A stretch of 20,142 nucleotides of DNA from a virus. The notes under the pieces were generated by a model that was not told the origin of the DNA, made no database searches, and saw only the letters and a program-made list of their open reading frames with translations. Below, piece after piece: positions 6,458 through 17,311 of this stretch. The position numbers and the translations under genes were made by a program. Within the stretch, counting starts at the first letter, position 1; each line of letters begins with the position of its first letter. The stretch covers positions 1-20,142 of IMG/VR virus record IMGVR_UViG_3300011010_000213, one strand, 5' to 3'.

Positions 6458-7938
6458 TATGTTATAACCCCTATTTCAACTTTACCCATAATCCAATCTC
6501 GATTTATACTAATAATTGCTCCTAATTTACCGGAACTTAGACCAAAACGTGGATTAACTAAAGTCACACCATCACCTAGCTCTACGGGTAGCAGGTGTGC
6601 TGCTCCACTTACTGTATACACTGTTCGCGGTATACCAAACAAAGCATTTCGATCATCTGCAGCCCACTCAGCACCAGCTTGTGTTATTAGCAAAGTATCT
6701 TCCGCTACAGGTTCAACTGTTAGCTTATAGTCCAGCACATTTGTACTTACAATATCTGTTGAGTACAAATACTCGGTGTTAAAAAGTGCAAGACTGCTAG
6801 GATTTATACCTGCTGCGAGTCCGCTATCTTGCACTGTCCAGTTTTTGCAATATCCGATTTTTGTGGCGGCCCTAACTACTGACTTTTCTTGTATTTGTAA
6901 GCTGTCAAGGTCTATGTCTTCTGGAGATATATTGTATGTAACGCCACTATAGTAGTATATTTTTACTAGCTTTAATAAGCCTAAACTACTAAACGTAAGT
7001 TGTGCCCCTATACTGGCAGCCAACTGGTTGCAAACATCTAAAATGTTCTCTCTATTTGTAGAATATACGCCTACGGGATGTGGGTATACTGTATTAAAAG
7101 TATTAAAGTTAGTTAGATCAATATCACTGTCGATTAGTCTAGTATTTGTTGGTCCGTAGTTTTTGACAATATCTAGAATAATATTAGGTATAGTATTATA
7201 ATAATTAACACCACGTTTTGCACCTTGTACGCTTGCAGTTATTTGACCAAAAGGCGCTTGATTAAGCGTAAACTTTCCGTTAGCTAAATCTTTAGTAAAA
7301 CTTACTGGTGCACCATTATCTCGAACTTCGATAATATCTTCTATAGCTCCAGTATGTACTTGATAGGTAAGTGTAGCACTACTAACTACTAGTGGTGATA
7401 CATTAAAACATTCTCCAAAAACAACAGGAATAAGTGTATCACTACCAAGAGCAGAACTTGAAAGTACTGTTTCTGATATAGGATTATTAAGTCGCTGTAA
7501 TTTATCAACAAGAATTAAGTTTAAAGACTCTCTGCTTCTACTAGAAATGTCGGAAATTAATCCTGAGAAAACTAGTCTAAAATCGGCTCTAGTCCATCTA
7601 GGATCACCAATATAAATTTTAACTGGTTTATTAACCCAGATATAGTTTATCCAAGCATCTTTTGCTCCACCGGTATTATCTAATTCAAGATCGCCATATC
7701 CTAAACTAATAGAGCTATCTAATGATAGTGTTTCTGAAAAGCTTACTCCTCCTACTAAGCAAGGATCATAACTAATACTACTAGGAGTATCTGACGCCGC
7801 TGTAACAAAAGGTCTATTAGACAAATAGAAAGTGGCCGATTGGCCACTTCCTATTGCTACGTTTTCAATCTCTACTAATATAGTTTTAATATGGTCGGAT
7901 GTTTTTAACCAGGTGGTTATTTCTGCGAGGGTTTTCAT
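6457..7938 (-). CDS. Tail-tip / baseplate hub protein, 493 aa
   Basis: The ATG overlaps the tape measure stop (ATGA), and the stop overlaps the fibre start (TAATG). The N-terminal half contains a beta-rich region with a GYGDLELDNTGG segment and a FRLVFSGLISDI strand. A block LVDKLQRLNNPISETVL then VVFGECFNVSPLVV follows (about residues 143-187). The second half has NREN..DVCNQLAASIGAQL and a long beta-rich tail ending in GDGVTLVNPRFG. I recall the 'VFGE..N..PL' block from tail-tip proteins that follow the tape measure in other siphophages. The hub would cap the tail tube and carry the fibre encoded next. No lysozyme or peptidase motif is apparent. The position just after the tape measure gene is the strongest evidence; a baseplate wedge or minor tail protein is the alternative. 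Confidence 0.75.
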   Translation of the reverse strand: MKTLAEITTWLKTSDHIKTILVEIENVAIGSGQSATFYLSNRPFVTAASDTPSSISYDPCLVGGVSFSETLSLDSSISLGYGDLELDNTGGAKDAWINYIWVNKPVKIYIGDPRWTRADFRLVFSGLISDISSRSRESLNLILVDKLQRLNNPISETVLSSSALGSDTLIPVVFGECFNVSPLVVSSATLTYQVHTGAIEDIIEVRDNGAPVSFTKDLANGKFTLNQAPFGQITASVQGAKRGVNYYNTIPNIILDIVKNYGPTNTRLIDSDIDLTNFNTFNTVYPHPVGVYSTNRENILDVCNQLAASIGAQLTFSSLGLLKLVKIYYYSGVTYNISPEDIDLDSLQIQEKSVVRAATKIGYCKNWTVQDSGLAAGINPSSLALFNTEYLYSTDIVSTNVLDYKLTVEPVAEDTLLITQAGAEWAADDRNALFGIPRTVYTVSGAAHLLPVELGDGVTLVNPRFGLSSGKLGAIISINRDWIMGKVEIGVIT

Positions 7939-10900
7939 ACGACTTGAGTTCTCCTACGAATAGCTTCAGTATGTGAAGTTGTTATGCCCGTATCTTTTAC
8001 TGTACGAGAAACCTCAACAGTATTTCGATTTGTAGCGTCTGCATTAATGATAGCACCTTCTGCAACAGCTCTTTCTAGTGAATCTATTTTCTGATTTAAT
8101 TTCTTAATTTCAGAAACTAGTACTTCGTTAGTTCTGTTTCTATCGCCCATATTTGCCATTAATTCAACATTATCTGCTGCAGGTATAATACGTTCGCCTT
8201 GATGAATTTGTGCTAACATATCTTCTGGTACAAAGTTAGTGCCTGTTGCAAACGTTGGTAAGGTAGGGTCCATTCTCTTAAACCATGCTAACACATCTGC
8301 TTGACTCATGCCAGTTATACGTGAAAAGATTTTAGAGTCGTAACCCCAGTCTTCTACATATATTCTACGCAGTTCTTTGGCTTGTGCCTCGCCACGCTCA
8401 ACCATTTTCATGTAGTTAGTAGTACCTTCATAACCACCATTAGCACCGAGCACTATTCCAGTATTGCCTTTTAAGCCATACATTTGATTACCAATAATGT
8501 ATCCACCTAATGAGCTAGTTAGAACATTACTGTTAGCAGCAGGAGTAGTTGCCGCTGCCGTTGCTGAAGTTAAGCTAGGTAGCTTGGCTTTTGCTAAATC
8601 TAGCAGCCTAATAGCTTCTGCTACACTTAGTATGCTATCATTTAATTTGTTAAGGGCTGCAATTTGTTCTTCGTGCAAAGTTATTTGAGTGTTTAATGCA
8701 GCCAAAGATTTCTCTTCAGCAGTTAGTTGGTCTGATAGTGATTTAGTACTATCAGTTAGTGCTTTTTGTACTAAGTTAAAGTCATCAATATACTTTGAAG
8801 AACTTGCGTTATAAGTTCTGCTTGCGTCTAAGAAGGCTGTAGATGCAGACTCTAGTTGACCTAGTGCTGCGGTTTTTGCGCGCTCTTCTTCTGGTGTGAC
8901 TGCCACGCCAGTAGCTGTAGCTAAAATTGCATCAAACTGTTTCTTAGCCTCGGCATACTTTTCAGTAGGAGTAAGAGGAGATGCTGAGCCAAGCAATAAC
9001 GAATCTTTAAATTTCTTAAACGATTCAATGTAGTTCTTAATAGAAGTAATAGTAGTTTCTATTGCTGTTTTCTGTTGTTTAACTTTATTTAGTTCTGCAT
9101 CTCTGGCTTTTGTAAGGGCTTGTTCAGCCGATTTAATATCTTCGAGCGCATATACATATTCTTGTAAAGGTACTAATTCTTTGGCTGTGTCGGTTAACTG
9201 TTTAGCTCTGCTTACTGCTAATATCTCAGCAGGTGTTCCTGTAAGAGATAAGATTTGGGCGAATAAGTCTTCACGTGAAGTTTTTAATTTTTGAGCTGCT
9301 TCTTCAGCAGCGTCAATCATTTTTACAAAACCTTCTTGAACATTCATTAAAGATTGGTATGCGTTACGTCCAGATACTGTTGATAGATCTAAACCTTGGA
9401 CCAATAGCTTAAACTCTTCGCGAGTATCTACAAGCCCATCAGCTGCTTTAAATCCTAGCTTTGACAAACGTATTAGTTCCACATTTACAGCTGTTGTAAT
9501 AGGAGCTAATTGTTCTGCTGACGTTAAGAAATTTTCTCTAAAAAACTCTGCTTGGGAAAGGAAACTTTCTAAGTTACCAGCATTTTCTACTAGTGCTTCA
9601 CTAATATCAAAGGCTGTGTTGCCTATCATATTAATTATTGTTTCCGTTTTACCACCAACTGTTACTATAGTTTCGACTGCTTTTTGATAGCTTTTTGTTA
9701 CATCAAATGTAGAACCTGTGTTCTTTAAAGCTTGATTAATCTTTACATTGCTGTCAATTACACGACTAACAGTTTCTAACATACCTTCGCCAAACTTAGC
9801 ATATTTTTCAAAACTGCTAAAAATAGCTGAACTTGCGTCGTCTAGTATACTGCTAATAATAGAGCTTAGTTCTTTTTGGAAGTCTTCGCCTTTTAATCCA
9901 CGTAAACTAATAAAATAGTCTTTTAGATTCATAGCACCTAGAATTTCATCAATGGTAGCTGCACTAATACTTGCTTTAGAACCCGCTTCTTTTAACAACG
10001 TTGTAGCATTGCCAAAAATCTCTGAAAAGAATTGGCTGGTAGAATCATCGATTTCTGCACGTGTAGTTTCAACCCAGGTTTTAGTTTTGCCGTACCAAGA
10101 TTTCTTTGAAACAGTTACTTGTTCAAAGAAGTCAATAACCGCTTTGTTAGTATCTTTAGCAAGTTGAGCAAAAGTACCTTCAATTATTATTCCACTATCA
10201 CTAATAGTACGAGTTGTTTTACTAGCAAATACGCCAGTACCTAAGAAGCCGCCACCGCTTTGTGTTCCCGGTACAGTACCGAACATACTACCGCTACGTA
10301 AGCCTTCAATAGAATACAAACTTTTTGCTGTTCTGTTAATACCACGATCAATACTTTCCAATAGTTTAACCATTTGATTATCATAGTTTAAGCCATCTAC
10401 TGATGTTTCACGCATTGTTTCAAGGCTCTTGACAATCGATTCTGACTTAGCATCCGTATCGCCAAATACTCCACGACGTACTTGAACTTTTTTGCCATCT
10501 TTATCATAACCCATGGCAGTGCCTTGAGTTTCTTGACGTTGCTCAGAATTAGGAACAAAACTAGCTCCACCCTTACTACCAAAAGCGCTACCAACAAATG
10601 CAGCAATCATAGCTGCAGCAACTGGTGGTCCAAAAATACCTAGTTGGCCAATAGTAGCGGCATAGATCTTGGGAATATCAATACCAATGGATACTAAGGC
10701 ACTATTAGCTTTCATTGCAAGTTCTTTTGCACTTGCAGCAAAACTAGCTAATTGTACTTCAGTAATTAACCCTAGTTTAATAGCGGCTTCTTTTATACTT
10801 AATGCAATAGATTGCGCTGCACGAATTTTCTCTAAGTTATTGAGAATTTTATATGCCGCAGTCTTTTCTTTGAATAAGCCTTTGGCAACTTTGGCAGCGT

Positions 10901-13900
10901 TCATTTCACCGTCAATTTCAAACTTTTCACGCTCTTGAGCATTTTCTTTAGCTTTGTCTTTGTAAGCTTCACTGTCTTTGTCCATTTTTAGCAGACTGTC
11001 GGCATGACGTTTAGTCATAGCAGCAGAGCCCATACTGTACTTAACTAATGCTTCGACTGTACCACCAATTTTAGTACCTAATTCGCCGAATAAAGATGCC
11101 AGTGATTGTGTAGCATCAGCAACTTTTTGCATAGCTGATGCTTGTTCCATACTAGATTTATTTATGTCTGTTCTTAAACCTAGCTGCGCAATAAGGCTTG
11201 CTACCTGTTTGTCACTGCTAACATTAGTTTCGTCTATTAATTGGCGCTGTAATCTGATTGCTTCGTTCAAAGCTTGGGCGGTTGCTGGATCGGCTGTTTT
11301 AAGAGCGACCTGTGCCTGACCGATAACTTTTTCAGCTCCCGCAGTAATATCATTAGAACCTTTTCGTATTTGATCGATTCTTGTTTGAGTTTCTAATCTA
11401 GCTTTGTCATTGTCTAAAGATAATTTCTCTCTTAAGTAACCTTGTTCGCCTATGGCATTTAGTTGTTTTGCGCTTTCTAAGCGCATATCAGCCATACCCA
11501 TTCTTTCAGATTCTAAGGCTTGGTTTTCTTGTAATCTGGCGTACAGTTTTTCTTGCTCTTTTACTTGTTCAGCGTATGCTAGGTTAGAATTATCAACAAT
11601 CTGTTTATTATCTAGATTTGTTTTTGCTATTTTTCCTGTTGTTTCAAGCTCTTTTATTTTATTGTTGGCTGTAATTATATCAGACTTAATAGCAGCTTTA
11701 TCTGCATCCGACTTTGCCTTAGTAAGTAAAATTTCGTTTGCAGCTATTTGAAGTCTAAGTTCGTAAGATTTTTTATCGTTATCGTACTTTAACTGTTGTT
11801 GGTCTATGCCTTGTTTAAGAGTATTTACTATAGTAGATTCTGTACCTACAATAGATTCTAAAGTACCTAAGTTATCTTTACTTAGCTTTAGTCTATCGGC
11901 CTGTCTATCTAAAGACTCTTGCTCGGTTTTCATACCTAATTTAGCAGTATCTACAGCGGTTCTTATAGCAACTACACCCATCTGAGCGCTAATATTAGCC
12001 ATTGCTGCAAAAGCTGATTCTGCAGCTGCAACATAACCTAAACTTTCTTTTGCACCAAGAGTACCTTCTTTAATACTTTGAGCTAACTTAGCCGTACTAC
12101 CTTGAGTAACTCGTCCCTCTAAGATTTTTCTACGATTATCAAGAGCTGCCTGTCTTGGGGCTAGTACTGCACGATCATTTTTATCAGCATTTTTAAGTTG
12201 TTCGTCTATAGAGGATTGCTCTAATGCTATTGATAAACGCTCATTTGATTTTATTAACTCAAGTTGAGTTTTTATTTGTTCCATCTGCACTTGCAGTGCG
12301 GCTGTCTCATACTTAGCACGTAGCCTTATACCACCTTCAGTATCTCCAAGCATACCTGCAATAGCAGCACCAATTGTGTTACCTGCTTTTGCCCACTCTA
12401 GACTTAGTTTGTCACTTAATAACTTAGCGCCATAAAAGAATTGATCTCTTAAAATTGCGTCAAATTTATTAGCTTCAAGTTTTGCTTGAGCTTGTATATC
12501 AAACAACAATTTAGTTTTAATTTCTTTGCGGTCTTTTAATTGCTCAAGCTCTTTATTAATTTGTTCGAGTTTTTCAAGATTTGAACCAAATATTCCTGAC
12601 GTTGGTGTAGTATTTGCTTTTTCCTCGTTTAATAAAGCTATTTTACTTTCAGCTTTGTCTATTTCGTTTGATGTAAGTGAATAGCTTTGTTTCAAAGCCT
12701 CTACATTTACTTTGAGAGCTATTAGCTGTTTCTCACTTTCTGGAGCAAATAAACTTAAGGTATTACTGTCTCTTACCGCTGCATTCATTGCGTTCAATGT
12801 CTGCACTGGATCTTTTAATGCAAGATCTAATTTACCTGCATTATCAATTATAGTCATACCAAGCTTACTTACGGCATCAGTAGGTAAAAAACTGTTTCGC
12901 AAATCTTGCAATTGTTTTGCAGATTGAGCATATGCCTCTGTTAGCTCTTTGCCTTTAGCCGCTGTAACTTCTGCTGCTAAAGCAGCTGCTTTTAAATCTT
13001 TGGTAAGAGTGTCTAAGCGTACTTTTCGTAATTCTTCAGGCAATTTTTCTAGTGCTTTTTTGATACTTGTAGCATCTAATTCATCAATACCTAAACTATT
13101 TTTAAACGATTCACGTAACTTGTCTGAAGCAGGGCCGCGCTCAAGCGTTGCAAAAGCTTTTGCAAAACCTTGTGCCGTTACTTCGTTTAACTTAGTTTGA
13201 ACGTCACCGTTCCATAATTTAGATACCCAATTAACAAATTGATCAGTATTGCCCATTTTTGCAAACTCAGCAACTGCTCGCATATTTGCTAGTTGAATAT
13301 TTTCTGCTAGTTCGCCAAAAGCTGTAGCTCTTGCACTAATACCTTCAACACTGATTCTTTCTAAAGGGCTTTTCTTAGCCAATGCTTCTAGAGTTCTAGT
13401 AACATTTTCTACTGAGCTTGTTACGGCGTCAAATGCTTTTGCTGTTTCTGCAGACTCTTTTGCAGTGTTCGATAAGTAGCTAATTAACCCACCTATTGCT
13501 GATGAGATTAAACCAAATATAAGCATCAAAGGGCCAAAAGCATTTAGCGCTGTTGTAGCAGCACTGCCCGCTATACTTAGTGCTCCGCGCAATACTACAA
13601 AAGATTTGCTTACAGGGCCTGCATCTAATTTTTTGGTTTGTTCACTTAATTCTCTAAATGCAGCTGTTGGGCCAAGTACTGCAGCAGTATCAGCAACACC
13701 TGCTAGTAAGCGGGATTTTGCAGCATCTCTGTTTAGTTTTTCTAAGTTTTTAGTCATTTGTTGTTGATGACTATACCACTTAGCGTCTTTAGCCTCATTG
13801 GTTGCTGCTGCAGCATCTCCACGAGCGGCACTTTCTCTTCTTAAATCTTCCATTTTTGAAAGATGAGCTTGCAACTTTGCACCTTGTTTTCTCTGTGTGT

Positions 13901-15188
13901 CGTTATCGCTGTCTAACAATGCTTGCGAACGTGCTTTTAGTGCAGAAGTTTCTTCTGGTGTAATATCAAAAGCACTTTTCTTTAAACTAGTGCGTAAATC
14001 TTTGCCTAGCAAATCTTGGCTAAATCTACCTTTTTGTAATTTCGCTATTCTATCTTGTGTAGTTTTTTCTAATTGGAAAGCTTTTTCTGCGCGCATTGCA
14101 GAAGCTGCATCCATAACAGAAGCAGCTGCTTGTTGATCTTTAACACTTCTAGCTACTCTTTCGCGAGTTTCTTCCGCTAAGGCTCGGGCATTCTCGCGAT
14201 ACATTCCTAATGCAGGTATGGCTTGTTTTAGTAAAATACCAGCAATACCAGCTAAAGCAACTCCCAGAGCTTTAGGGCTCTGAGACAATATTTCCATTAA
14301 CGGCCCTAAAGCTTTGTTAATTGTCTCTAAAATAGTCTGTGCCAGATTAGTTACGCTAGCCAATAGTTTGCTGTATGGATTTGCGTCTAGCTGAATACTA
14401 CCAAATTTCTTTTCGCCTTGTTCAATTGCAGCAATTGCAAAAGCATGACGACGTTCAAAATCAGTTAGTCCAGTCGCAGTTTTTCCTATGCTACGTGCAT
14501 AATTTGTTACTGCTTCATCTACTTTAACAAAAATACCTAATTCATCTAATAATTCAGGTTCTAACTTAGTAACGCCTCGACTTAAACGACTTAATGCGTC
14601 AGGCATATTAATACCAAGCGCCTGGCTTGCAGTTTTTGCAACTGTAGTTAAACGTTCTAAATTACGGCTACTCATGCCTGCTGCAGTAGCTTGAGCAGTA
14701 GCGGTCATTGCTTCGCGTAAACTAACCGCACCATCGCTTAGATCAGCAATACGCAGTGACAAGGCCCCAAGGTTTCTTCCACCCTGTGCACCAAGTTGTT
14801 CTAATCCACGTATCATGCTAGTAGTATCAGCTGCATTCTTTAAAGCACTAAAAGCTGCGCTTACTGCAAACAAGTTAGCCGCAAAAGTAGCGTACACACG
14901 TACTAAACCACCCAAACCTTGTGCTTGATTAGCAAAGTCTCTGCTACTTGCTCCTGTTGTACCTGCAGTACCACGAGCTCTGCCGTATTCTTGTCCAGAC
15001 ATACCTTGACTTTTTGGAGCTGCTGCGGCTGCGGCTGCTCTAGAACTAGCTGTACCTGCCTCTAGTCTTTCGGTTGCTTTTTGCGCAGCGGCTGCCGCTG
15101 CCTGGATTTCATTAATATTCTTTACTACTTTTTTAGCAGTGCCATTATCACTGACATTTACGCCAATGTTTACATTTTTTTGAGCCAT
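7935..15188 (-). CDS. Tape measure protein, about 2417 aa
   Basis: The largest gene of the window; it sets tail length and probably helps DNA entry. The start is placed at the ATG at 15188 (MAQKNVNIGVNVSDNG), 4 nt after GGGGGA. The in-frame TTG at 15200 overlaps this ribosome site. The N-terminus is Ala/Gln-rich and helical. Hydrophobic segments lie at about residues 306-328 (VALAGIAGILLKQAIPALGM), 551-573 (PLMLIFGLISSAIGGLISYL) and 1507-1538 (IFGPPVAAAMIAAFVGSAFG). Long Lys/Glu/Gln-rich coiled-coil stretches fill most of the remainder, as expected for an extended protein inside the tube. Near residue 2316 the C-terminus has TGTNFVPEDMLAQIHQGERI, a motif typical of tape measure C-termini. I see no HExxH or transglycosylase-like site. 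By the usual ~0.15 nm per residue, an unprocessed protein implies a tail of about 360 nm. Its own consensus promoter lies about 70 bp upstream. Confidence 0.95.
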   Translation of the reverse strand: MAQKNVNIGVNVSDNGTAKKVVKNINEIQAAAAAAQKATERLEAGTASSRAAAAAAAPKSQGMSGQEYGRARGTAGTTGASSRDFANQAQGLGGLVRVYATFAANLFAVSAAFSALKNAADTTSMIRGLEQLGAQGGRNLGALSLRIADLSDGAVSLREAMTATAQATAAGMSSRNLERLTTVAKTASQALGINMPDALSRLSRGVTKLEPELLDELGIFVKVDEAVTNYARSIGKTATGLTDFERRHAFAIAAIEQGEKKFGSIQLDANPYSKLLASVTNLAQTILETINKALGPLMEILSQSPKALGVALAGIAGILLKQAIPALGMYRENARALAEETRERVARSVKDQQAAASVMDAASAMRAEKAFQLEKTTQDRIAKLQKGRFSQDLLGKDLRTSLKKSAFDITPEETSALKARSQALLDSDNDTQRKQGAKLQAHLSKMEDLRRESAARGDAAAATNEAKDAKWYSHQQQMTKNLEKLNRDAAKSRLLAGVADTAAVLGPTAAFRELSEQTKKLDAGPVSKSFVVLRGALSIAGSAATTALNAFGPLMLIFGLISSAIGGLISYLSNTAKESAETAKAFDAVTSSVENVTRTLEALAKKSPLERISVEGISARATAFGELAENIQLANMRAVAEFAKMGNTDQFVNWVSKLWNGDVQTKLNEVTAQGFAKAFATLERGPASDKLRESFKNSLGIDELDATSIKKALEKLPEELRKVRLDTLTKDLKAAALAAEVTAAKGKELTEAYAQSAKQLQDLRNSFLPTDAVSKLGMTIIDNAGKLDLALKDPVQTLNAMNAAVRDSNTLSLFAPESEKQLIALKVNVEALKQSYSLTSNEIDKAESKIALLNEEKANTTPTSGIFGSNLEKLEQINKELEQLKDRKEIKTKLLFDIQAQAKLEANKFDAILRDQFFYGAKLLSDKLSLEWAKAGNTIGAAIAGMLGDTEGGIRLRAKYETAALQVQMEQIKTQLELIKSNERLSIALEQSSIDEQLKNADKNDRAVLAPRQAALDNRRKILEGRVTQGSTAKLAQSIKEGTLGAKESLGYVAAAESAFAAMANISAQMGVVAIRTAVDTAKLGMKTEQESLDRQADRLKLSKDNLGTLESIVGTESTIVNTLKQGIDQQQLKYDNDKKSYELRLQIAANEILLTKAKSDADKAAIKSDIITANNKIKELETTGKIAKTNLDNKQIVDNSNLAYAEQVKEQEKLYARLQENQALESERMGMADMRLESAKQLNAIGEQGYLREKLSLDNDKARLETQTRIDQIRKGSNDITAGAEKVIGQAQVALKTADPATAQALNEAIRLQRQLIDETNVSSDKQVASLIAQLGLRTDINKSSMEQASAMQKVADATQSLASLFGELGTKIGGTVEALVKYSMGSAAMTKRHADSLLKMDKDSEAYKDKAKENAQEREKFEIDGEMNAAKVAKGLFKEKTAAYKILNNLEKIRAAQSIALSIKEAAIKLGLITEVQLASFAASAKELAMKANSALVSIGIDIPKIYAATIGQLGIFGPPVAAAMIAAFVGSAFGSKGGASFVPNSEQRQETQGTAMGYDKDGKKVQVRRGVFGDTDAKSESIVKSLETMRETSVDGLNYDNQMVKLLESIDRGINRTAKSLYSIEGLRSGSMFGTVPGTQSGGGFLGTGVFASKTTRTISDSGIIIEGTFAQLAKDTNKAVIDFFEQVTVSKKSWYGKTKTWVETTRAEIDDSTSQFFSEIFGNATTLLKEAGSKASISAATIDEILGAMNLKDYFISLRGLKGEDFQKELSSIISSILDDASSAIFSSFEKYAKFGEGMLETVSRVIDSNVKINQALKNTGSTFDVTKSYQKAVETIVTVGGKTETIINMIGNTAFDISEALVENAGNLESFLSQAEFFRENFLTSAEQLAPITTAVNVELIRLSKLGFKAADGLVDTREEFKLLVQGLDLSTVSGRNAYQSLMNVQEGFVKMIDAAEEAAQKLKTSREDLFAQILSLTGTPAEILAVSRAKQLTDTAKELVPLQEYVYALEDIKSAEQALTKARDAELNKVKQQKTAIETTITSIKNYIESFKKFKDSLLLGSASPLTPTEKYAEAKKQFDAILATATGVAVTPEEERAKTAALGQLESASTAFLDASRTYNASSSKYIDDFNLVQKALTDSTKSLSDQLTAEEKSLAALNTQITLHEEQIAALNKLNDSILSVAEAIRLLDLAKAKLPSLTSATAAATTPAANSNVLTSSLGGYIIGNQMYGLKGNTGIVLGANGGYEGTTNYMKMVERGEAQAKELRRIYVEDWGYDSKIFSRITGMSQADVLAWFKRMDPTLPTFATGTNFVPEDMLAQIHQGERIIPAADNVELMANMGDRNRTNEVLVSEIKKLNQKIDSLERAVAEGAIINADATNRNTVEVSRTVKDTGITTSHTEAIRRRTQVV

Positions 15189-15192
15189 TTGT

Positions 15193-15198
15193 TCCCCC
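15193..15198 (-). promoter_or_regulatory. Ribosome binding site deciding the tape measure start
   Basis: GGGGGA lies 4 nt before the ATG at 15188. A start at the upstream in-frame TTG (15200) would place this site inside the coding sequence and leave only AT-rich sequence upstream, so the ATG is preferred. Confidence 0.75.
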
Positions 15199-15254
15199 AA
15201 TAGGCAAAGACTGTCCTAAATTTTTAAATTAAATCTAGACTTATAGTTAACACG

Positions 15255-15283
15255 ATTATACCACGCTGGCATTGTTTTGTCAA
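15255..15283 (-). promoter_or_regulatory. Consensus sigma-70 promoter with extended -10, upstream of the tape measure gene
   Basis: On the minus strand TTGACA (15278-15283), a 17-base spacer and TATAAT (15255-15260) are all at consensus, with TGG before the -10. Transcription should start near 15248, giving a leader of about 60 nt. It follows the terminator at 15303-15339, so the tape measure and tip genes form a separate unit. It shares the ten bases GTGGTATAAT with the promoter at 877-905, but the rest of the spacers differ. Copies of CCTAAATTTTT (plus strand) lie at 15215-15225 and 15285-15295, on either side of it; their meaning is unknown. Confidence 0.85.
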
Positions 15284-15302: not shown

Positions 15303-15339
15303 AAAAAAGCCCATAACAACAAAGTGTTATGGGCTTTTT
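15303..15339 (-). terminator. Strong rho-independent terminator after the tail chaperone genes, symmetric enough to work both ways
   Basis: A 15-bp perfect inverted repeat (core GCCCATAACA with TGTTATGGGC, 6-base loop) is flanked by A on one side and T on the other. On the minus strand it ends in six T residues. The stop codon of the frameshifted chaperone frame (15327-15329) lies inside the stem, so the final codons of the gene are part of the hairpin. The A/T flanks would also let it stop plus-strand transcripts, though no plus-strand gene is apparent. Confidence 0.9.
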
Positions 15340-15641
15340 GCTTTTAATTTTTCTGAAACTAACTTCTGTCTTACACCATCCATATGTTGTAAGAAATCTA
15401 AACAAAGTAATATCTCAGCCGAATCTTCTATTCCGTATACCTTAAACAAGTTAAAAACTATAGAATAGTGTTTACCCATAAAACCGCCGCCCATTGAGTC
15501 CCAATTATCTGGTAATATTCCGTATATTACAAAACATTGTTGAACTAATTCAGGGAAGTCTCCTACTTCTATAGGTATTTCTTCTTCTATTGGCTCTTGA
15601 TCTAGCATTTCACACATTTCAAAGTAACTGTCCTTTGTCAT
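15327..15641 (-). CDS. Tail assembly chaperone, T frame (downstream half of the frameshift product)
   Basis: This frame would give 104 aa if started at the ATG at 15641, but no Shine-Dalgarno site precedes that ATG. The same frame is open for 23 more codons upstream, back to the slippery site at 15710-15716. It is therefore best read as the C-terminal part of a G-T fusion and not as a separate gene. It is acidic near the start (EPIEEEIPIEVGDF). It then has GILPDNWDSMGGGFMGKHYS and VFNLFKVYGI, and a basic helical end. I recall a WD-x-M-GG-x-(Y/F)-(L/M)-GK block in comparable T-like chaperone domains. In lambda the T part recruits tube protein while G binds the tape measure; the same division of labour is inferred here. 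Confidence 0.7.
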   Translation of the reverse strand: MTKDSYFEMCEMLDQEPIEEEIPIEVGDFPELVQQCFVIYGILPDNWDSMGGGFMGKHYSIVFNLFKVYGIEDSAEILLCLDFLQHMDGVRQKLVSEKLKAKSP

Positions 15642-16099
15642 GTGTACATCGCTATTGTGAAAGTATCTGCGAAGCTGTTCTCTTACAGCAGTTATTTGTT
15701 CGCTGAAAAGTTTCCCAAGTCTGTGACCTGTTCACTAATAAAACTGTCAAAGTTTGTAGAATTCTTCATTAGGTACAAAGAGTTTTCCTCTGAGTACTCT
15801 AGTTCGGCTTCTAAATCTTGGTCAGTAAGGTCAACAGGAACTAGTTGTTCTAAGTATTTTAACTTTAGACCATTCCAGCCTTTAATGGCGTTTTTAACGT
15901 AAAGTTCTAGGAACAGGTCGTCATTTAGTTCTTCGACTGGTTGACGATTTTTGAAACTAGTTTTAGTAGACTTCTTGCGAATAGTCTGTAAAGTCTCGCG
16001 AGAAAGAAAAGCTACTTGAACTTTGAAATCAGGCATGCCTGGATATTCTACTTCAAGAGACTTTGAGGGAACAAGGAGATTTTTTAGAGAAATTGACAT
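15327..16099 (-). CDS. Tail assembly chaperone GT fusion made by -1 ribosomal frameshift
   Basis: The first 130 codons (16099 to 15710) are read in the G frame. At G_GGA_AAC the ribosome slips back one base and continues as CTT TTC AGC through 127 codons to the TAA at 15329-15327, giving about 257 aa. I checked the junction by hand: the T frame has a stop at 15734-15732 and the G frame ends at 15694-15692, so frames can only be joined in a window of about 40 nt. The slippery heptamer falls inside it. This is the layout of G/GT chaperones in many long-tailed phages, encoded just before the tape measure as here. The fusion would be the minor product. Slippage frequency cannot be read from the sequence. 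Confidence 0.8.
15692..16099 (-). CDS. Tail assembly chaperone, G form (135 aa)
   Basis: The start is set at the ATG at 16099 (MSISLKNLLVPSKSLEVEYP). An in-frame TTG at 16150 would begin inside the terminator hairpin of the tube gene and add a 17-residue extension with no family resemblance, so it is rejected. The sequence continues with GMPDFKVQVAFLSRETLQTI and RKKS, FKNRQPVEELNDDLFLELYV and YLMKNSTNFDSFISEQ. This pattern is familiar from tail chaperones encoded between tube and tape measure genes. The G form should bind and keep soluble the tape measure during tail assembly and is absent from the finished virion. Unusually for this window, no Shine-Dalgarno site precedes the ATG; the leader is simply AT-rich. 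Together with the terminator just upstream, this suggests expression well below that of the tube protein. Confidence 0.85.
   Translation of the reverse strand: MSISLKNLLVPSKSLEVEYPGMPDFKVQVAFLSRETLQTIRKKSTKTSFKNRQPVEELNDDLFLELYVKNAIKGWNGLKLKYLEQLVPVDLTDQDLEAELEYSEENSLYLMKNSTNFDSFISEQVTDLGNFSANK
15710..15716 (-). promoter_or_regulatory. Programmed -1 ribosomal frameshift site (G GGA AAC)
   Basis: On the minus strand the heptamer GGGAAAC sits in the G frame as G_GGA_AAC, fitting the X_XXY_YYZ rule; both tRNAs can re-pair after slipping to GGG and AAA. Lambda uses the closely similar GGGAAAG at the same gene junction. A small hairpin GCTGT/ACAGC lies about 20 nt downstream, further than is usual for a stimulator, and no convincing pseudoknot is visible. 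Confidence 0.85.
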
Positions 16100-16127: not shown

Positions 16128-16158
16128 AAAAAAGCGGTACCGGAGATCAACCGGTACC
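16128..16158 (-). terminator. Rho-independent terminator or attenuator between tube and chaperone genes
   Basis: On the minus strand GGTACCGG and CCGGTACC form a perfect 8-bp GC-rich stem around a 7-base loop, followed by GC and six T residues (16128-16133). It lies about 16 bases after the major tail protein stop. No good promoter is visible between it and the chaperone ATG at 16099, so some transcription must read through it. It could therefore act as a partial terminator that lowers chaperone expression relative to tube protein. Confidence 0.85.
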
Positions 16159-16174: not shown

Positions 16175-17311
16175 TTAAGCCGCGTTAGTTGTGTAGTACT
16201 TAACTTCTAGTTCATTAGCCGAACCAATGTCAAAGGCACTTGATGCAGAACCTTGAGCAGTAAAGTTAATTGTTGTAGAAATAACCTGTTCAGTTGCAAC
16301 AGTTGGAATTGTTAACACAGCTGCTGGCATCGTTAACGATACTCGCGTTGCGTTACTAGATCCACCAATATTTACTTCGATTTTAAACTCTGGATCAACG
16401 TCAGTTGTTGAACCGGCTAACAAATCGGCTAACAGACCTGCAGTGTTTGTTGAACCTGCACGTAAGTAAGCATTAATGCTTCCGCTAATAGCGCGCGTAC
16501 CAGTAAAGTAGGTAAAGGGACGGTTAACAACACCTAAGTTAGCTGGTGTTAAGTATGTTAAGTTGTTAGCAATTGTTAAGCTACCACCAGTAAGGGCTAC
16601 GGTAAACGCAGTACCACCACCGCCAATACCTTTAGCAATTGAAAGAGTACTTAGCTTGTTAGCAATAAACGGAGCGGTAGTAATCTTAGCTTTAGCACTT
16701 CCAGTTAAGCCGCCACCAAATACTGCAGGTGAAGCTGTTGTAGCTGTTAAACCTGAGATTTGACGTAAAATAGCACCTTTACCAGCCCAAGCAATCATAG
16801 CAATAGCATCTAAACCAAAATCAATTGTAGCGCTATCTAAGGCGCAGTTGTCAATAATGTAAGATACACCATCGATTAAAATGATTAGTCCAAATTTTTG
16901 TAATTGGTGAGAGTTGGAATTTGTTGCAACTACTGTTGCGTATGTAACACCATCTGACCAAGCTGGAGCACTACCACCGATTGCGTCAGTGCCTAACAAA
17001 GCATTCCATAGTACCGCTTCTTCAGCTGTAATATTTGTTCCGCCATCAGCAGGACGAATATAAGTGCTCATAGAAAAATCAACTGGCTCTAGTGCAGTAT
17101 TAAAACTACGCTGACCACGAACTGGAGAAGCTCCTGCTTCGTTAAGTGTAACGGTTTCGGCAGTTGTATTCTGACTAAAACTAAATCCATCCATAACCTG
17201 GAGTTCTCTAGTGTTAGTATCAGTAAAACCGCTGGTTGCAACGACACCTGTTTCTGAATTTACGTTAGTAGTGAAAAATACACGACTATTACGAATTAAA
17301 TTAAATGACAT
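16175..17311 (-). CDS. Major tail (tube) protein, 378 aa
   Basis: The product begins MSFNLIRNSRVFFTTNVNSE and has TNTRELQVMDGFSFSQNT, TVTLNEAGASPVRGQRSFNT and DFSMSTYIRP. These blocks match tube proteins I recall from other siphophages. The C-terminal half is Ser/Thr/Ala-rich beta sequence with a Gly-rich loop (GIGGGGTAF) and an extra FTYFTGTRAISGSINAYLRA segment; it may be a second tube-like or decorating domain. Many copies would stack into hexameric rings around the tape measure. Placement between the tail terminator and the chaperones is the canonical order. An AAGGA-type site precedes the ATG. A GC-rich hairpin terminator directly behind the stop suits a gene needing high mRNA levels. 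Confidence 0.9.
   Translation of the reverse strand: MSFNLIRNSRVFFTTNVNSETGVVATSGFTDTNTRELQVMDGFSFSQNTTAETVTLNEAGASPVRGQRSFNTALEPVDFSMSTYIRPADGGTNITAEEAVLWNALLGTDAIGGSAPAWSDGVTYATVVATNSNSHQLQKFGLIILIDGVSYIIDNCALDSATIDFGLDAIAMIAWAGKGAILRQISGLTATTASPAVFGGGLTGSAKAKITTAPFIANKLSTLSIAKGIGGGGTAFTVALTGGSLTIANNLTYLTPANLGVVNRPFTYFTGTRAISGSINAYLRAGSTNTAGLLADLLAGSTTDVDPEFKIEVNIGGSSNATRVSLTMPAAVLTIPTVATEQVISTTINFTAQGSASSAFDIGSANELEVKYYTTNAA

Follow-up and report, generated by a model that had tools for sequence, protein, structure and literature searches.

The tail assembly chaperone gene of an uncultured phage related to T5 very probably undergoes programmed -1 ribosomal frameshifting, judging from its sequence and those of its relatives. 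The window analysed here is the whole of a 20,142-base virus record (IMG/VR record IMGVR_UViG_3300011010_000213), in which two overlapping frames, G and T, are flanked by the major tail protein and tape-measure genes. More broadly, this chaperone pair is likely expressed throughout the T5-related phages by frameshifting at one fixed codon. The direction of the shift appears to have flipped between +1 (at TTT_C, the form of T5-like phages and of a marine sister clade) and -1 (at A_AAT_TTT, repeatedly exchanged with G_GGA_AAC), with both proteins kept. The features of the window are as follows.

16175 to 17311, minus strand: major tail protein gene, the upstream neighbour (phrog_3575, E 5.6e-62).
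15692 to 16099, minus strand: G-like tail assembly chaperone frame, 135 aa, the zero frame (phrog_313, E 4.6e-17).
15726 to 15729, minus strand: weak Shine-Dalgarno-like AGGT, a possible stimulator, 9 nt 5' of the heptamer (CAG enrichment, see below).
15710 to 15716, minus strand: slippery heptamer G_GGA_AAC in -1 phase (same codons in 116 loci, codons fixed).
15327 to 15731, minus strand: T-like frame, -1 relative to G, open from 15731 (phrog_3914, E 5.3e-15).
15639 to 15641, minus strand: first ATG of the T frame, with no preceding Shine-Dalgarno sequence (position not conserved).
7935 to 15200, minus strand: tape-measure protein gene, the downstream neighbour, encoding 2421 aa (phrog_3779, E 7.4e-42).

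Both frames match PHROG tail assembly chaperone families; in Pfam, G gives just one sub-threshold match, Phage_TAC_5. On the minus strand, G starts with ATG at 16099 and stops with TAA at 15694-15692. The last upstream stop of T is TGA at 15734-15732, and T ends with the stop at 15329-15327. Zero-frame codons at the overlap read GTC ACA GAC TTG GGA AAC TTT TCA GCG AAC AAA TAA. A preliminary description made from the window by itself had placed the G stop, the upstream T stop and the T ATG at these positions, and every one is correct. Its claim that T lies at -1 relative to G is borne out by the frame positions. As it also stated, G_GGA_AAC (15716-15710) is the sole in-phase heptamer in the short overlap, and the ATG at 15641 lies 23 codons past the slip. 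Recomputed from the sequence, the predicted fusion has the 257 aa and the junction (DLGN-LFSEQ) given there, the fused part of T starting at codon 15710-15708. GGGAAAC occurs only once in the 20,142 bases, both strands counted.

By far the closer relatives of the window are uncultured contigs. The isolate relatives are T5-like Demerecviridae, with at most 43% identity in G, and homology makes the window a relative of that family rather than a placed member of it. Several signals were also observed around the pair. Between T and the tape-measure gene lies a perfect sigma-70 consensus promoter (15255-15283, minus strand; TTGACA, 17 nt, TATAAT; 12/12), which also carries TG before the second hexamer. 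Just before it, and overlapping the T stop, is a strong terminator-like hairpin of 15 pairs (15304-15339), listed on the plus strand and followed by a T run on the minus strand too; T5 and Sugarland have terminators annotated at the equivalent place. A second terminator-like hairpin (16136-16158, minus strand; 8 pairs, then a T run) separates the major tail protein stop from the G start.

Frame phases, slip sites, codon fixation, stem covariation and the tree are shown by the sequences themselves; from these we infer slippage, its efficiency and the roles of the products. The majority of ribosomes would stop at 15692 and release the 135-aa G protein, and a minority would slip back one base on G_GGA_AAC and continue into T, yielding the 257-aa G-T fusion. 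By analogy with lambda, G may coat the tape-measure protein and G-T may recruit the major tail protein. The family as a whole would conserve the fusion, with its junction beside one conserved Phe codon. Some relatives would make this junction by a -1 shift at A_AAT_TTT, presumably aided in the main marine clade by a 3' stem-loop and an upstream Shine-Dalgarno-like element. T is in +1 phase in the T5-like phages and the marine sister clade, where ribosomes would likely slip +1 at TTT_C, in nearly every case TTT_CGN.

We collected 341 loci from viral contigs found in five scans and from annotated isolates, pairing G and T by profile search; 336 have both frames, and the other five end inside or just past G. 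Aeromonas phage AhSzq-1 was left out, as G and T were not both found in its partial genome. In all 336 pairs the two frames overlap out of phase, and each pair has, at the same codons, a slip site that suits its phase. T is in -1 phase in 225 pairs (G_GGA_AAC in 116, A_AAT_TTT in 109) and in +1 phase in 111 (TTT_CGN in 109, TTT_CAC in 2). The -1 sites all fall at one place, typically D-L-x-N-F, and the +1 TTT_C falls at the matching Phe. Slip site and motif are 27-28 codons apart in almost every -1 locus, and 27 or 31 codons apart in +1 loci. Every T5-like phage sampled falls in the +1 group, T5 itself included (GAT ACT TTT CGT AGC). Nine further isolates (Serratia, Proteus, Vibrio, Enterobacter and Pectobacterium phages) are likewise +1, with TTT_CGN. 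Isolate records list G and T as two genes, and none is annotated as a frameshift. Vibrio T5-like phages (L126-L128, L348-L350) have an extra gene, ~740-775 bases long, that separates T from the tape-measure gene.

Codon usage at the slip site supports the -1 reading of the preliminary description, as do the in-phase site in 225/225 same-phase relatives and the stop-free trans-frame segment. The fixed codons are those that the slip needs, and often the rest of the gene mostly uses other synonyms. All 85 members of the GGGAAAC class have GGA for Gly (26% elsewhere), AAC for Asn (41% elsewhere) and a G-ending codon for the preceding Leu (~15% elsewhere), whereas the Phe after the heptamer is free (76 TTT, 9 TTC). 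AAT and TTT are found in 87/87 genes of the AAATTTT class. The +1 class has TTT followed by C in 101/101 distinct genes, with TTT at 68% elsewhere; TTT is also present in L185 and L187, two +1 loci whose preceding codon differs. Kinship among loci makes p-values for this fixation optimistic, but needed and unneeded codons are contrasted within the same data. GGGAAAC is absent from some close relatives, which the preliminary description had singled out as counting against a frameshift; each of these carries A_AAT_TTT instead, placed one codon further downstream and in unchanged phase. Fused or separated frames, which it had likewise singled out, occur in no same-phase relative.

For the T5-like group, the same fusion could be reached by a -2 slip, as in Mu, in which case the groups would differ in the size of the slip and not in its direction. 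A +1 and a -2 shift end in the same frame, and Mu G-T is cited in PMC3498833 as a -2 case. We consider this unlikely. The only fixed element is TTT plus C, which fits P-site re-pairing from UUU to UUC and favours +1 over -2. In bacteria, UUU_Ynn is prone to +1 shifts (PMC5009743), and +1 shifting is proven at UCC_UUU_CGU (PMC3498833).

T might instead be a separate protein made from its own ATG at 15641, by internal initiation or by reinitiation past the G stop, which lies within reach at ~50 nt. The two-gene annotation of isolates agrees with this, and an ATG at T codon 23 is common in the class of the window (52/85). Even so, we judge separate synthesis of T very unlikely. For most of the marine -1 clade, no T ATG comes before codon 42-43, which already falls within the T domain. 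The T frame remains open and coding-like upstream of its ATG, with 0 stops there against 101 and 194 in the other two frames, and between the G stop and T codon 23 stops are confined to the other frames. Separate initiation would also leave the fixation of the slip codons unexplained. A Shine-Dalgarno core is found ahead of candidate T starts in 0/87 AAATTTT, 2/85 GGGAAAC and 7/103 +1 loci, versus 77/87, 31/85 and 91/103 for candidate G starts. This argument against a separate start is strong for the AAATTTT and +1 classes and weak for the GGGAAAC class, because G starts lack a core in 54/85 there; we therefore rejected the missing Shine-Dalgarno sequence as proof in the window clade. With cores at ~88% of G starts in the other two classes, the low rate in this one may indicate another type of host.

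That the split reflects gene decay or a mistake in sequencing or assembly, with a heptamer present by chance, is scarcely credible. Canonical heptamers occupy 263 of 36,099 codon-phase positions within the bodies of homologous G genes, so ~7% of such overlaps (~10 positions) would hold one by chance, but the same layout with a matching site recurs in 225 contigs from numerous samples, and neither frame is interrupted in any of them. GGGAAAC itself occurs at 0/36,099 of those positions, and the heptamer of the window is far beyond chance since G_GGA_AAC occupies the same codons in 116 loci. Transcriptional slippage was also considered and rejected, as none of the three site types has a homopolymer run.

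The preliminary description had noted no clear stimulatory structure, and this holds: in the 70 nt downstream, searched for a 3' stem-loop or pseudoknot, the window clade averages a z of -0.26 and shares no hairpin, and the small hairpin of the window is not conserved. A few subclades of the window clade (L100, L104) do have hairpins. The mean z of the AAATTTT class is -2.47. In the marine A_AAT_TTT clade (L209-L290), a stem-loop CAAGTAG...CTACTTG starts 8 nt past the heptamer and overlaps the T coding sequence. Its stem covaries, with 91.8% of cells paired and 62 double-change cells versus 20 in shuffles; slid controls score far lower. Because the arms also code for T, protein constraint could account for some of this conservation, but the compensatory changes are harder to explain in that way.

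The marine clade also has a AGGTGATC-like sequence ~9 nt upstream of the heptamer. Such a sequence is complementary to the end of 16S rRNA. At this distance the window clade has just AGGT, with weak pairing energy. Across that clade, Gln at the AGGT position is encoded by CAG in 50/66 cases versus 114/422 elsewhere in the gene.

How the direction changed was traced on a tree of G from 51 representatives, with the slip codons excluded and the root not inferred. Direction changes once, on a single branch (98/91). Heptamer changes are more frequent, and at least five of them are required by well-supported branches within the freshwater clade. On the T tree, too, one direction change is needed, with weak support (86/65). 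With a root among the +1 rows, where the midpoint falls, -1 would be derived. One locus (L155) combines a -1 heptamer with a +1 site in GAA AAT TTT CGT, with T in +1, and is a possible dual-direction site. Eleven +1 loci are one synonymous change from a dual site of this type, and five -1 loci have A_AAT_TTT_C. The flip may have gone through dual sites such as A_AAT_TTT_CGT, and a one-base insertion or two-base deletion downstream would suffice to move the T frame.

Among known systems, the window resembles lambda G / G-T (Levin 1993; Xu, Hendrix and Duda 2004, as relayed in PMC5009743), in which overlapping frames before the tape-measure gene yield G and a fusion by a -1 shift near the end of G. 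The chaperone families differ by sequence, and relatives of the window pair also occur in +1 phase. The heptamer of the window is one base from G_GGA_AAG, highly shift-prone in E. coli according to the same review. AAC, described as a second codon of mammalian type that shifts less readily in E. coli than AAG does, counts against slippage, as does the lack of a conserved 3' structure in the window clade; E. coli may not be the host of the window. Burkholderia phage KL1 (PMC3483164) and Caulobacter phage Colossus (PMC3556154) use GGGAAAC for a -1 shift in a tail chaperone, as in the window, and phiCbK and Colossus show an exchange between AAAAAAC and GGGAAAC, much as the relatives of the window exchange heptamers. 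As far as these two papers show, however, the tail modules are unrelated, and no direction change was reported. As GGGAAAC tail chaperone sites were already known, the window site alone is another textbook -1 case.

A further comparison is T5 itself. T5.143 and T5.142 are homologous to G and T of the window, lie in the same neighbourhood and overlap at the same Phe codon. They differ, as does the Demerecviridae tail module, in that T is in +1 with TTT_CGN and an additional (tail-tube) gene lies between the major tail protein gene and G, with no intervening gene in the window; they are also annotated as two genes. According to the Sugarland genome paper, no frameshift signal is predicted there or in T5 (PMC6256483). 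We found no description of a T5 or Demerecviridae tail chaperone frameshift in the open literature, most subscription journals lying outside the search. If our reading of the family is correct, T5, among the best-studied phages, makes a hidden +1 fusion protein that has gone unrecognised. The T5-like sites share UUU_CGU with the influenza A PA-X site UCC_UUU_CGU (PMC3498833), and phages DU_PP_V and My1 match it exactly (TCC TTT CGT); this likeness is convergent, the PA-X host being eukaryotic and the gene unrelated.

Signals that are interchangeable, with and without a stem-loop or Shine-Dalgarno-like element and with the same protein output, would allow their trade-offs to be measured in one reporter. 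A genome-wide survey found that orthologs keep the direction of programmed ribosomal frameshifting, and it read a mixture of directions as indicating transcriptional slippage (PMC3711429). The chaperone family would break this rule without homopolymer runs, and direction would then not always be conserved among orthologs. A precedent for both directions is the fungal Rab-GDI displacement factor, a eukaryotic gene unrelated to the window pair, in which the shift is -1 in most species and +1 in some (PMC5009743).
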